The position numbers and the translations under genes are program-made. A stretch of 64,000 bases of DNA from NCBI RefSeq assembly GCF_002844235.1, contig NZ_PGTS01000007.1:62001-126000 (forward strand), written 5' to 3'. The notes beneath the pieces were generated by a model. The model was not told the origin of the DNA and searched no databases. It saw only the letters and a list, made by a program, of their open reading frames with translations. This stretch comes from Thalassospira povalilytica. Lineage in GTDB: Bacteria; Pseudomonadota; Alphaproteobacteria; Rhodospirillales; Thalassospiraceae. This document shows positions 24,083-28,039 of this stretch, one piece after another. Numbering within the stretch: position 1 is the first letter of the stretch; each line of letters starts with the position of its first letter.

Positions 24083-24395
24083 AACAATCTGTTTGGAATA
24101 TCCCGGCCCCGCACGGTTCGGTTTGGCGATGTTTTACGGCGTTCCATCGCTTGAACGGTGCCCCGCATCGCCCTTGCGCGCGGTGGTTTGCCAAACAATC
24201 CACCAAACACGACCAAAACGATCCAATCCAAATTGAAACTGTAGTGGGGAAACCTTGCACGGTTCCCGTCCATTAACCGGCCTGATAATTTTAAACAAAA
24301 AAATAGTGTATTAATTGAAATATTGACATTTTTCTGTGGGTGATTACATCTCTTTCACAGTTTCATGAATTTTTCGACATATGGAGACAGGCCCC
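24083..24395. other. 313-bp intergenic region upstream of the sulfurtransferase operon
   Basis: No gene is seen. The last 110 bases are AT-rich with a TTGACA at 24323-24328 that could be a -35 element for the rhodanese gene; the matching -10 is weak. No terminator was seen for the TetR gene. Confidence 0.4.
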
Positions 24396-25319
24396 ATGCG
24401 CTCTCTCATTCTTTCTGCTGTTGCAGTGGTGGCATTTGCCTTTGCTGGAAATGCTGCCCAGGCCGAGCGCCTGACGGAAAAGCCGCTGGTTGATGCCAAC
24501 TGGGTTGAAGCAAACCTCGATAATCCGTCGCTGGTGGTTGTTGATATCCGTTCGATGACCAAGGAAGGCAGCCCCTATGACGCCGGTCACATTCCGGGAT
24601 CGGTTTATGCGCCTTATGGCAAGTTCGGCTGGCGTGCCAAGGTCAATGATGTTGTCGGCATGTTGCCGCCTTTGGATGTGATTTCAAAGCGCATCGGGTC
24701 GCTTGGCATCGACAATGACAAACAGGTCGTGGTTGTCCCGGCCGGTCAGAACAGCTCGGACTTCGGGGCTGCAACCCGTGTTTATTGGACCTTCAAGGTT
24801 CTGGGCCATGATGCGGTAACCATTCTTGATGGTGGCCAGCGCGCATGGCTTGCCGCAGGCAAGGCGGTTTCGACCGATGCGGTCGCACCTGATGCGGTTG
24901 CGTTCAATGTCAATTTCCGTCCGGAACTTCTTGCCACGGCAGAAGACGTTGCCAAGGCACGTGAAAACGGTGTTGCGCTGATTGATGCCCGCCCGGAATC
25001 ACAGTTCAAGGGCGAAACCAAAAGCGGCGTAGTCGCACGTGCCGGTGCGGTTCCGGGTGCAAAGAACATTTCGCAGTCGGAATTCTATAGCGATCAGGAA
25101 GGTGCATTTGTTGCATCGGACGTGATTGAATCGCTGGTTTCGGATGCCGGTGTCGACAAGGATGCCAAGGAAATCACCTATTGCAATACCGGTCACTGGG
25201 CGTCGGTCGCATGGTTCGGTCTGTCCGAAGTGATGGGCAACAAGAACACCGCGATGTATGATGGTTCCATGACCGAATGGGCTGCTGATCCGAACCGTGA
25301 AATGGTTGTTTCGGAATAA
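24396..25319 (+). CDS. secreted two-domain rhodanese-like sulfurtransferase
   Basis: A 307-residue protein with a clear signal peptide (MRSLILSAVAVVAFAFAG, cleavage after AQA at about residue 23), so periplasmic. Two rhodanese domains: the first (about 30-165) has VVVPAGQNSSDFGAATRVYW and lacks the active Cys; the second (about 175-300) carries Cys263 in EITYCNTGHWAS, the persulfide-forming residue. It is the layout of thiosulfate or 3-mercaptopyruvate sulfurtransferases. It lies 123 bases before a YeeE/YedE transporter and an NPC-repeat protein, suggesting one sulfur-handling unit. Thiosulfate is the likely donor, but this is inferred. Confidence 0.88.
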   Translation: MRSLILSAVAVVAFAFAGNAAQAERLTEKPLVDANWVEANLDNPSLVVVDIRSMTKEGSPYDAGHIPGSVYAPYGKFGWRAKVNDVVGMLPPLDVISKRIGSLGIDNDKQVVVVPAGQNSSDFGAATRVYWTFKVLGHDAVTILDGGQRAWLAAGKAVSTDAVAPDAVAFNVNFRPELLATAEDVAKARENGVALIDARPESQFKGETKSGVVARAGAVPGAKNISQSEFYSDQEGAFVASDVIESLVSDAGVDKDAKEITYCNTGHWASVAWFGLSEVMGNKNTAMYDGSMTEWAADPNREMVVSE

Positions 25320-25442: not shown

Positions 25443-26654
25443 ATGTCAGAAACGACACTTAAGGCCCGCCCGGACGTCCCGGGCTTTGACTTTGACAAGG
25501 GACCGGCGGCGATTACCGCGGTTCTGTTTGTTGTGGTCGGCATTGCCATTGCCCAGGCGGTGGATCTGCATCAGGCCGTGCTTTACGGTCTTGGCGGATT
25601 GCTGGGCATTTCACTTTATCATGCATCATTCGGTTTTACCGGCGGCTGGCGGCGTTTTTCGGTCGAGAAACGCGGACGGGCGATGCGCGCCCAGCTTTTG
25701 ATGATCGGGGTTGCGGCCGCGGCCTTTATTCCGATGCTGGCGCTGGGAAGCCCGCTTGGCAATCCGATTGTCGGGGCGGTGGCACCGGTGGGCACATCGG
25801 TGCTGGTCGGGGCCTTCATGTTTGGTCTTGGCATGCAGCTTGGCGGTGGATGCGGTTCGGGCACCCTGTTTACGGTTGGCGGTGGCAGTGCGCGTATGTT
25901 GCTGACGCTGGCCTTCTTTATTATCGGGGCGGTGATCGGAACGGCGCATTTGCCGATGTGGCTTGAACTGCCATCCTTGCCGCCGATGAGTGTCGGTCGT
26001 GAATTCGGTGTTGCGGGCGGCCTTGCCGTGACCTTTGGTGGTCTGGCGCTTGTCGCGCTGATGACGGTGATTGTTGAAAAGCGTGCCCATGGTTCGCTTG
26101 AAGCAACGCCCAAGGCGCCGCGTGCCGGTCTGGCGCGCCTGTTCCATGGTCCCTGGCCGCTGGTCTGGACCGGGTTGCTGTTGGCGGGGCTTAATATCGC
26201 GACCCTTCTGATTGCCGGTCATCCGTGGTCGATTACGTTCGGCTTTGGTCTTTGGGGGGCAAAGATCGCCCAGGGCATCGGTATTCCGGTTGAAACCTGG
26301 GAATTCTGGAACTGGGCGGGGCCTGCCAAGGCGCTTGGCAATTCGGTTCTCGAAGATAATACCTCGGTGATGAATTTCGGCATCGTGATCGGTGCGGCCT
26401 TTGCCGCGGCCCTTGCCGGAAAATTCGCGCCGAAGGTATCGGTGCCGATGGCGTCGCTTCTGGCGGCGGCAATTGGCGGACTTTTGATGGGCTATGGCGC
26501 GCGTCTGGCATTTGGTTGCAATATCGGTGCGTTCTTTAGCGGGATCGCATCGGGCAGCGTGCATGGATGGCTGTGGTTTGTTCTGGCCTTTGCGGGCAGT
26601 TGGGTCGGCATTGCGCTGCGTCCGGCATTTGGATTGGATGGATTCCGGAAATGA
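25443..26654 (+). CDS. YeeE/YedE family (TsuA-like) sulfur-compound transporter
   Basis: A 403-residue membrane protein with about nine or ten helices. The two half-repeats carry the family's key cysteines: Cys137 in LGMQLGGGCGSGTLFTVGG and Cys359 in GARLAFGCNIGAFFSGIASG. In TsuA these cysteines relay thiosulfate through the membrane. The downstream gene starts inside this stop codon (ATGA), and a rhodanese precedes it, so uptake and persulfide transfer appear linked. Thiosulfate as substrate is inferred; other members move selenium or unknown sulfur species. Confidence 0.88.
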   Translation: MSETTLKARPDVPGFDFDKGPAAITAVLFVVVGIAIAQAVDLHQAVLYGLGGLLGISLYHASFGFTGGWRRFSVEKRGRAMRAQLLMIGVAAAAFIPMLALGSPLGNPIVGAVAPVGTSVLVGAFMFGLGMQLGGGCGSGTLFTVGGGSARMLLTLAFFIIGAVIGTAHLPMWLELPSLPPMSVGREFGVAGGLAVTFGGLALVALMTVIVEKRAHGSLEATPKAPRAGLARLFHGPWPLVWTGLLLAGLNIATLLIAGHPWSITFGFGLWGAKIAQGIGIPVETWEFWNWAGPAKALGNSVLEDNTSVMNFGIVIGAAFAAALAGKFAPKVSVPMASLLAAAIGGLLMGYGARLAFGCNIGAFFSGIASGSVHGWLWFVLAFAGSWVGIALRPAFGLDGFRK

Positions 26655-27151
26655 GCGAGAAAAACACACTTCTTTTCGGTGCGGTCTTTTTAGCCGCGAC
26701 CGGTGCGGTTGCCCTTGATCATTACACCCATACGGCCAATGTCCCGGCAATCGCCAATCCGGCCCCGGCCAAGCGCCCGGCCGCCGGGGCAAACCCGTGC
26801 GCGGGAAATCCGTGTGCCGCCAATCCGTGTGGCGCGAATCCCTGTGGTGCCAATCCTTGTGGTGCGAACCCGTGCGGGGCAGGGTACAATCCGTGTGCGG
26901 CTAATCCATGTGCCGCAAGCCCGTGTGGTGCCAATCCCTGTGGGGCGGGCTATAACCCGTGCGCAGCGGCACCCTGTTCGGCAAACCCCTGTGCGGCAAG
27001 CCCGTGCAGCCCATGTGCCGCCAATCCGTGTGCTGCCTATAACCCATGTGCAGCCGTGCCGTGTGCGCCGGCCAGCAATCCCTGTGCTGCGGCCAATCCT
27101 TGTGCCGCATACAATCCGTGCGGTGCCGCGAACCCGTGTTCGGCCTATTGA
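26651..27151 (+). CDS. cysteine-rich Asn-Pro-Cys repeat protein of unknown function
   Basis: A 166-residue protein whose start overlaps the transporter stop (ATGA). Residues 7-22 form one hydrophobic segment (signal anchor or uncleaved signal; no lipobox). From residue 50 to 163 it is almost only Ala, Gly, Asn, Pro, Cys with some Tyr and Ser. It has 22 cysteines, every one preceded by proline: 17 NPC, three SPC, one APC and one VPC, mostly at five-residue spacing (NPCGA/NPCAA). No cysteine lies outside this array. Such a chain could bind soft metals or carry persulfide sulfur in the periplasm. I do not recognise an assigned function; the sulfur link is from operon context. Confidence 0.85.
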   Translation: MSEKNTLLFGAVFLAATGAVALDHYTHTANVPAIANPAPAKRPAAGANPCAGNPCAANPCGANPCGANPCGANPCGAGYNPCAANPCAASPCGANPCGAGYNPCAAAPCSANPCAASPCSPCAANPCAAYNPCAAVPCAPASNPCAAANPCAAYNPCGAANPCSAY

Positions 27152-27214: not shown

Positions 27215-28039
27215 TTGGCGAATAAAAAGTGGACCGATGAAGAGCGATACGCTGCTTTAAAGCTGTATTTTGAGCTCGACTTTGGTCAATTCCACGCGCG
27301 AAACAAGAATGTGATTGAGTTGGCGCAGGTTTTAGACCGCACGCCAGGTTCAATCGCCATGAAGCTTGGCAATTTTGCAAGCTTGGACCCGACACTTGAT
27401 CGTGGTGGGTTAAAGAATGTGAGCGCTGCTGACAGAGCGTTGATGGCGCGCTTTCACAATCAGCCTGCGCGAGTCATTGATGATATTGAACGGGCGGTCG
27501 ATAGAATTGAATATCGGTCTCTTTCCCTGCCTTCTGCAAATCCTGAAGATAATGTTCAAGACGGGATGCAAGATCAGCAAATCGGATTCGACATATCGGG
27601 GCGTCCTACAAGCGTTATGCGGGTTCGGGAAGAGCGGCTCAATCAAGGATTCTTTAGGCGAGCGGTTTTATCGGGCTACCATTTTCAATGCTGTGTGTGC
27701 GGCTTGAAGTTCGTGCGGTTGTTAGAGGCAGCGCATATTAAGCCGCATCACCAAGACGAAACTTTCAGACTAAGGCCCGACAACGGACTGTCTTTGTGCC
27801 GCAATCATCATAAGGCGTTTGATGAAGGTTATTGGACGCTTGGCGGTGACTTCGAGATCGAGCTTGATCCACGATTGCGCAAATTGGCCCGGCATGATGA
27901 AGCGATCAGTGATTTATTGATTGCGCATGAGGGCAAACAGATTCGCCAACCATTTCGCTATCTCCCTTTGAAGGAAGCAATTGATTGGCATAGAGAAAAT
28001 ACGTTTGCAAAGAATGAGCCGGTGTTGGGGAAGGGTTAA
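27215..28039 (+). CDS. HNH endonuclease
   Basis: A 274-residue protein starting at TTG 27215, with AGGAG (27202-27206) upstream. The N-terminal 65 residues form a small helical domain (KWTDEERYAALKLYFELDFG; RTPGSIAMKLGNFASLDP) seen in stand-alone bacterial HNH proteins. The nuclease domain is C-terminal: CCVCGLKFVRLLEAAHIKPH, then NGLSLCRNHHKAFDEGYWTL, giving the CxxC...H...N...H pattern of an HNH metal site. Codon use is AT-richer than the neighbours, so recent acquisition is likely. It may be a defence nuclease or a restriction remnant; no methylase is adjacent. Confidence 0.85.
   Translation: MANKKWTDEERYAALKLYFELDFGQFHARNKNVIELAQVLDRTPGSIAMKLGNFASLDPTLDRGGLKNVSAADRALMARFHNQPARVIDDIERAVDRIEYRSLSLPSANPEDNVQDGMQDQQIGFDISGRPTSVMRVREERLNQGFFRRAVLSGYHFQCCVCGLKFVRLLEAAHIKPHHQDETFRLRPDNGLSLCRNHHKAFDEGYWTLGGDFEIELDPRLRKLARHDEAISDLLIAHEGKQIRQPFRYLPLKEAIDWHRENTFAKNEPVLGKG

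Follow-up and report, generated by a model that had tools for sequence, protein, structure and literature searches.

Sulfur import into the cytoplasm has been called poorly understood (PMC11582611), and the described systems that come closest to the present locus share parts of its organization. In StYeeE-YeeD (TsuA-TsuB), a YeeE channel is co-encoded with a small thiol partner and thiosulfate is relayed between cysteines, with C293 reported as the first and C91 as the second cysteine of the relay (PMC11073785) and a third placed at the cytoplasmic YeeD interface. SoxT1A and SoxT1B of Hyphomicrobium denitrificans are YeeE-like importers with a periplasmic DsbA-like thioredoxin encoded nearby, and a short single-helix protein of unknown role adjoins SoxT1A (PMC11582611). 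YedE1E2 is a two-cysteine transporter reported to import zero-valent sulfur, both cysteines being essential (PMC10812762), and bufferins are cysteine-rich periplasmic chains that have a metalloenzyme partner and are modified by MNIO enzymes (PMC12452194).

The locus described here lies in a window of 64,000 nucleotides, the whole stretch of Thalassospira povalilytica DNA that was analyzed, and consists of three genes, hereafter the module, with the following features:

24396..25319 (ORF from 24381), + strand: secreted two-domain rhodanese (PF00581), single Cys 268, active loop CNTGHWAS
25443..26654, + strand: YeeE/YedE sulfur transporter, 403 aa (PF04143, E 1.6e-74)
26651..27151, + strand: small anchored Pro-Cys tail protein, 166 aa, 22 Cys, each after Pro
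26651..26728, + strand: N-terminal anchor of the small protein, residues 1-26 (MSEKNTLLFGAVFLAATGAVALDHYT), conserved across families, model helix 3-26
26729..27148, + strand: Pro-Cys tail of the small protein, residues 27-166, predicted disordered

The module resembles StYeeE-YeeD in pairing a channel with a small thiol partner; however, YeeD is folded, cytoplasmic, and TusA-type, whereas the partner in the window is disordered by prediction, membrane-anchored, and probably periplasmic, and the third YeeE cysteine is absent from the window's YeeE. The short protein beside SoxT1A lacks cysteines, according to the cited part of that source, and SoxT1B has three essential cysteines and serves thiosulfate oxidation, whereas the window's genome has no SoxY match. 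YedE1E2 and PmpAB are alike in their two conserved cysteines, essential in YedE1E2, but are split into two short proteins, and a Pro-Cys partner is not described for them in the cited parts of PMC10812762 and PMC11582611. No description of an anchored Pro-Cys protein beside YeeE was found in the titles and abstracts of the open-licence literature.

The rhodanese, the channel, and the small protein

The rhodanese carries both the PF00581 domain and the active-site cysteine, and, among solved structures, the chains closest to it in sequence belong to thiosulfate and mercaptopyruvate sulfurtransferases. Its ORF (24381-25319) stops 123 bases upstream of YeeE; translation probably begins at an inner Met (MRSL..., base 24396), where most of the aligned homologues shown begin, and the start resembles a signal peptide as judged by eye. 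The cysteine is kept in 29/29 aligned copies, in which the CNTGH loop is invariant.

The window's YeeE matched PF04143 at 251.7 bits, against a curated cut-off of 27, and contains two cysteines in all: C137 aligns with C91 of StYeeE and C359 with C293, whereas the position of the third StYeeE cysteine, C22, is occupied by Gly64 in the alignment with the StYeeE chains. Both cysteines are present in 42/42 module copies, and the C22 position is Gly in all 42 of these and in 41/41 other YeeE proteins. With two cysteines, the window's YeeE does not belong to the TsuA/SoxT type, which has three conserved cysteines, and the TsuA NCBIfam models scored below cut-off (72.1 of 400 and 56.3 of 645 bits). 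No TusA/YeeD-type gene lies beside the operon; the two TusA-family matches of the genome are on contigs C2 and C3, and the operon is on C7. In the YeeE tree, the split between module and other YeeE proteins received weak support (87/68). Elsewhere in the same genome, two short stretches (G000:C3:432830-433650) match Sulf_transp weakly, below its cut-off, and perhaps represent a YedE1E2/PmpAB-like pair.

The gene order in the window is as the initial annotation read it, and the ATG of the small gene (26651) does overlap the YeeE stop (TGA, 26652-26654) in an ATGA. The annotated precedence of every cysteine by proline was also recovered (22/22; 17 NPC, three SPC, one APC, and one VPC), together with a single hydrophobic N-terminal segment at residues 6-22. 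Its description of the tail as mostly NPC units every five residues held in part: the spacing between cysteines is five residues in 13 of 21 cases, and 3, 6, or 7 in the rest, but the constant unit is Pro-Cys and not Asn-Pro-Cys. Composition alone is insufficient to explain the tail, since 20,000 shuffles of its 140 residues yielded at most 11 Pro-Cys pairs versus the 22 observed. In the orthologue from Thalassospira profundimaris strain 35 (L095), the first 85 codons differ from those of the window by 36 synonymous and one non-synonymous changes, so that purifying selection acts on the small protein and on its early repeats; the comparison is confined to this pair because, among the other Thalassospira rows, at least L012, L016, L018, and L024-L027 are shifted by indels. 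Codon choice also differs from repeat to repeat, and a chance pattern or a wrong frame was ruled out by the shuffling, the codon differences, and this variation among repeats; the long ORFs overlapping 26651-27151 are interpreted as echoes of the repeat in other frames.

The structure model of the small protein contains a single helix (residues 3-26) followed by a tail that is unstructured at low confidence, with pLDDT <50 in 106 of 166 residues, all past residue 55, and no strand or repeat fold. A pentapeptide-repeat solenoid was rejected on this disordered tail and on the absence of any Pfam family match at E 1. The only NCBIfam family match, a weak one, was to CefA, a RiPP with Cys at every fifth residue (NF038108; 16.8 bits, cut-off 30), and across 60 genomes the CefA model had no match above cut-off and matched below it in four.

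Distribution of the module within and beyond Thalassospira

The small gene was found in 29/29 Thalassospira-like genomes searched (G000-G028), and among other genomes of the same order it was matched in 2 of 31. L008 lies at a contig edge; the other 28 genus loci include sequence upstream of the small gene. In each of these 28, a YeeE 71-100% identical to that of the window ends 4 bases inside the small gene, and 25 show the rhodanese, whereas the flanks of the remaining three do not extend far enough to include it. The N terminus of the small protein is near-invariant among these close relatives, and the tails carry 14 to 31 cysteines, with proline before 652 of 660. Among the genus genomes searched, SoxY was detected in 8/19, versus 29/29 for the small gene, and selD was not above cut-off in any of 19, the window's own included. 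MNIO (PF05114) had no match in the window's genome and occurs in 16/18 genus genomes, each time on a different contig from the YeeE locus or >1 Mb away. As the window's own genome lacks SoxY, selD over cut-off, and MNIO alike, the module is independent of SoxY, selenophosphate, and MNIO. Directly behind the small gene, an ORF at 27215-28039 of the window has a Cys/His pattern that we take to be an HNH-endonuclease-like motif; in L097 and L098, the next gene lies within about 330 bases of the small gene, so this ORF is absent there.

Named genomes were scanned with the YeeE alignment, and counts were made on the best 80 of 573 confirmed relatives. In 39 of these 80 loci, the YeeE match is followed after 0-20 bases by a small protein beginning like MSxRNTLLFGAALxxATAAVAxDH, the usual order being rhodanese, two-Cys YeeE, small protein, and DUF6969. 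A rhodanese is present in 36 of the 39, directly upstream and on the same strand in 30; the other six, in Ochrobactrum/Aminobacter J41-type loci, are distant matches (23-26% identical) on the other strand. L122, L123, and L131 have no rhodanese match, nor do the related L272 and L292 in the DNA examined, and the rhodanese is therefore not obligatory. DUF6969 is present in 32 of the 39, within 1.5 kb downstream in 31 (elsewhere in the locus in Caenispirillum), and CcdA/DsbD_TM plus thioredoxin in 11; in L125 (4626-5761) and ten further module loci, these two genes, the thioredoxin with a signal-like start, are encoded upstream of the YeeE operon in the opposite orientation. The other 41 of the best 80 loci contained rhodanese in three, DUF6969 in one, and CcdA/thioredoxin in one. 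Of those three rhodanese loci, L119 is unjudgeable at a contig end, L137 is a variant module missed by the pattern (rhodanese-YeeE, then a variant ending PCGM), and the third is L158. The genera with the module include Devosia, Pelagibacterium, Aminobacter, Mesorhizobium, Chelativorans, Bauldia, Aureimonas, Caenispirillum, and Pseudothauera, and an oddity restricted to Thalassospira was thus ruled out.

Since these loci were found via YeeE, the link was checked in reverse with an anchor-only model (A3; 30 residues, no YeeE sequence), whose rows come from YeeE-linked loci, so that family members without a YeeE linkage might escape detection. In 385 genomes of the class, A3 gave ten matches at E 0.01; YeeE adjoins all seven with E ≤4e-4, five of which are outside the genus, in four genera. 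The three weak matches (E 0.005-0.01) without an adjoining YeeE were treated as chance. The link that the initial annotation had noticed between the small protein, the YeeE transporter, and the secreted rhodanese is accordingly real and recurs across families.

Conservation is concentrated in the anchor (R/K-N-x-x-L-F-G ... A-x-D-H/Y) and in the Pro-Cys unit, whereas Asn and the number of repeats vary. Mean pairwise identity of the anchor is 0.53 (30 residues, 38 copies; the incomplete L105 is the remaining one of the 39). The neighboring rhodaneses (28 loci plus the window) reach 0.36 in their signal region and 0.59 in their domain, which argues that the anchor is conserved beyond the need of a cleaved leader. 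Proline precedes 305 of 309 cysteines across the 38 complete copies, and every cysteine in 34 of these proteins. The tails range from 1 to 31 cysteines, with ≤3 in 13 of the 38, and include NPC arrays (Thalassospira, Devosia limi), APC/SPC arrays (Aminobacter niigataensis), two NPC motifs (Ochrobactrum), and a single Pro-Cys (Pseudothauera). NPC-rich tails do not form one clade; they require four changes on the YeeE tree, at least two of them forced by well-supported branches, and were therefore gained or lost more than once.

Pro-Cys chains and DUF6969 outside the module

NPC repeats by themselves occur more widely than the YeeE module. In the 23 loci from the NPC search with wide flanks, an NPC ORF was present in 21, only three of which have YeeE, whereas DUF6969 was nearby in 13 of the 23 and a cytochrome P460-like domain in 13 (tblastn), PF16694 being confirmed in the one P460 representative scanned. 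The recurrence of YeeE or rhodanese neighbors that the initial annotation proposed to look for thus stands when homologues are defined by the N-terminal anchor and fails when they are defined by NPC repeats alone. Repeat-search matches in 25 non-genus genomes (wide flanks cover 19 of them) comprised a Pro-Cys ORF in 20 loci and none in five. The repeat-based homology search was set aside as a main tool because it was misleading, returning mainly P460 fusions and stand-alone NPC proteins and missing orthologues with few repeats. As similar Pro-Cys repeats adjoin DUF6969 or form part of P460 fusions in loci that lack YeeE, the repeat itself need not concern YeeE. NPC repeats and a cytochrome P460-like domain share one ORF in many alphaproteobacteria (L084:5657-6646, and similarly L033, L034, L077, L081-L083, and L089-L094), and in L051 (1015-1806) NPC repeats precede another domain, presumably of dual-specificity phosphatase type. 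A secreted protein with an IELTQxxCQF start lies beside YeeE or NPC genes (L089:7914-8549, L240:2756-3250, L086:5997-6494); the two scanned, from L089 and L086, had no Pfam family over cut-off.

A census of DUF6969 (PF22308 in the representative scanned) covered 77 places in the class with up to 4 kb on each side, leaving out NPC-search places, those of the genus itself, and small fragments. A Pro-Cys ORF was present in 22, P460 in 16, an FGE-type gene in 21, YeeE in four, and rhodanese in one, and 39 of the 77 had none of Pro-Cys, P460, FGE, or YeeE. By the same rule, no Pro-Cys ORF was found within 4 kb in 40 control YeeE loci, partly from other taxa, although control locus L158 has Pro-Cys ORFs and a piece of DUF6969 just beyond the counted 4 kb. 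DUF6969 genes and Pro-Cys chains therefore tend to co-occur, with or without YeeE, and half of the DUF6969 genes are without such company. The FGE-sulfatase-type genes (among L205-L281) contained PF03781 in the two representatives scanned.

DUF6969 is His-rich, with no signal peptide seen, and is modeled as well folded (pLDDT 95); five residues that resemble a metal site (His61, His63, His74, His76, and Cys77) do not vary across 30 aligned rows. Its model found no match to solved PDB structures by Foldseek at E 0.001 (best 0.18), which, together with the lack of MNIO in the window's genome, sets the system apart from bufferins. No paper on DUF6969 was found in the open-licence literature, and the present loci provide this uncharacterized domain with its first genomic context. 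DUF6969 is absent from the operon in all five named Thalassospira loci, and the single DUF6969 gene of the window's genome lies on another contig, beside a secreted NPC paralogue. This second Pro-Cys protein (L031:6056-6454; G000:C1, about 808998-809312) has a secretion-signal-like start and NPCAAK repeats, and its neighbors are TRAP-transporter, universal stress, FGE-type, and DUF6969 genes.

A possible sulfur relay and competing explanations

The small protein could plausibly act as a thiol tail in the periplasm, tethered to the membrane, that cooperates with the adjacent YeeE and relays sulfane sulfur, a reading that we hold tentatively. From the gene order, the placement of the cysteines, and the partners, we infer a topology with the N terminus inside and the tail outside, binding to YeeE, persulfide chemistry, and a direction of transfer. 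The secreted rhodanese would load sulfane sulfur from thiosulfate or polysulfide onto its own single cysteine, and the conserved anchor helix would hold the disordered tail at the mouth of YeeE, where the Pro-Cys thiols would take up sulfur as persulfide and offer it to the outer cysteine, C359, which would hand it inward through C137. Where present, CcdA and thioredoxin would keep the tail reduced, and DUF6969 may mature it. Extra repeats would raise the chance of capture, and one Pro-Cys would be enough in principle. SoxY, with which no sequence relation is claimed, similarly carries sulfur on a periplasmic cysteine on a mobile arm; it has a folded domain and one carrier cysteine, on a C-terminal GGCGG arm. 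CcdA and thioredoxin, as genes of periplasmic thiol reduction, were counted in favor of the relay, and the many tails with far more cysteines than a relay needs were counted against it. The 13 of 38 copies with one to three cysteines fit a relay or tether better than a store, and the storage role suggested in the initial annotation is doubtful for the same reason, as these copies occur in the same setting. Its sulfur link stands and is broader than the window alone showed, with persulfide chemistry the favored reading of the tail; the small protein probably passes sulfur on to YeeE, along a path that has yet to be described. The defining feature is accordingly restated as an anchored Pro-Cys tail. 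Conceivably, and with greater doubt, such disordered tethered chains constitute sulfur carriers of a new class, each serving as a tunable antenna where the channel opens to the outside, within a wider Pro-Cys/DUF6969 thiol system that is also fused to P460 in alphaproteobacteria. The outer half of the import route becomes testable through a conserved accessory protein that has little beyond one helix and Pro-Cys thiols and that many genera encode immediately after the channel.

Alternatively, the Pro-Cys proteins might be made as precursors, and DUF6969 or another enzyme would then alter their cysteines, either ahead of export or in the course of it, to yield a bufferin-like, thiol-derived chelator or carrier. 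We regard this as unlikely, although modification of the tail by DUF6969 has a real chance of occurring and would be compatible with the relay. The company of DUF6969 and Pro-Cys proteins (32 of 39 anchor loci among the best 80 YeeE loci, 13 of 23 wide loci, and 22/77 versus 0/40 controls), its confident fold and metal-site-like residues, and the FGE-type genes near 21 of 77 DUF6969 places all speak for modification; FGE-type enzymes act on cysteine in known cases. The CefA match points the same way but is sub-cut-off, as are those in four of 60 genomes; moreover, the window's genome lacks the MNIO mark of bufferins, its sole DUF6969 gene adjoins the paralogue on another contig, and modification alone leaves the YeeE link unexplained.

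The relay is likewise to be weighed against a metallothionein-like role in buffering soft metals such as Cu or Zn in the periplasm, which the initial annotation had entertained and which we consider improbable: 22 thiols in 140 residues, mostly at every fifth residue, would suit metal binding, but no metal gene was recognized by eye among the neighbors recurring in at least 4 of 39 loci, a sulfur channel adjoins 7/7 good anchor matches, and the copies with ≤3 cysteines could hold little metal. It is highly improbable that the operon handles selenium instead of sulfur; the best NCBIfam match of YeeE is selen_YedE_FdhT (124.7 of 350 bits) and the second of the rhodanese is ExtH, a selenite-operon rhodanese (81.1 of 200), but both are below cut-off, and selD over cut-off is absent from the 19 genus genomes. 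An envelope or redox role without sulfur transfer, in which the protein would form a disulfide-linked mesh or serve as a membrane-located oxidant sink, seems quite improbable, though less so than the selenium version; the chain is disordered and rich in Pro, Ala, and Cys, and the cysteine-rich CdeC of Clostridioides difficile is reported to self-assemble, but the small gene sits directly behind YeeE and its anchor is conserved.
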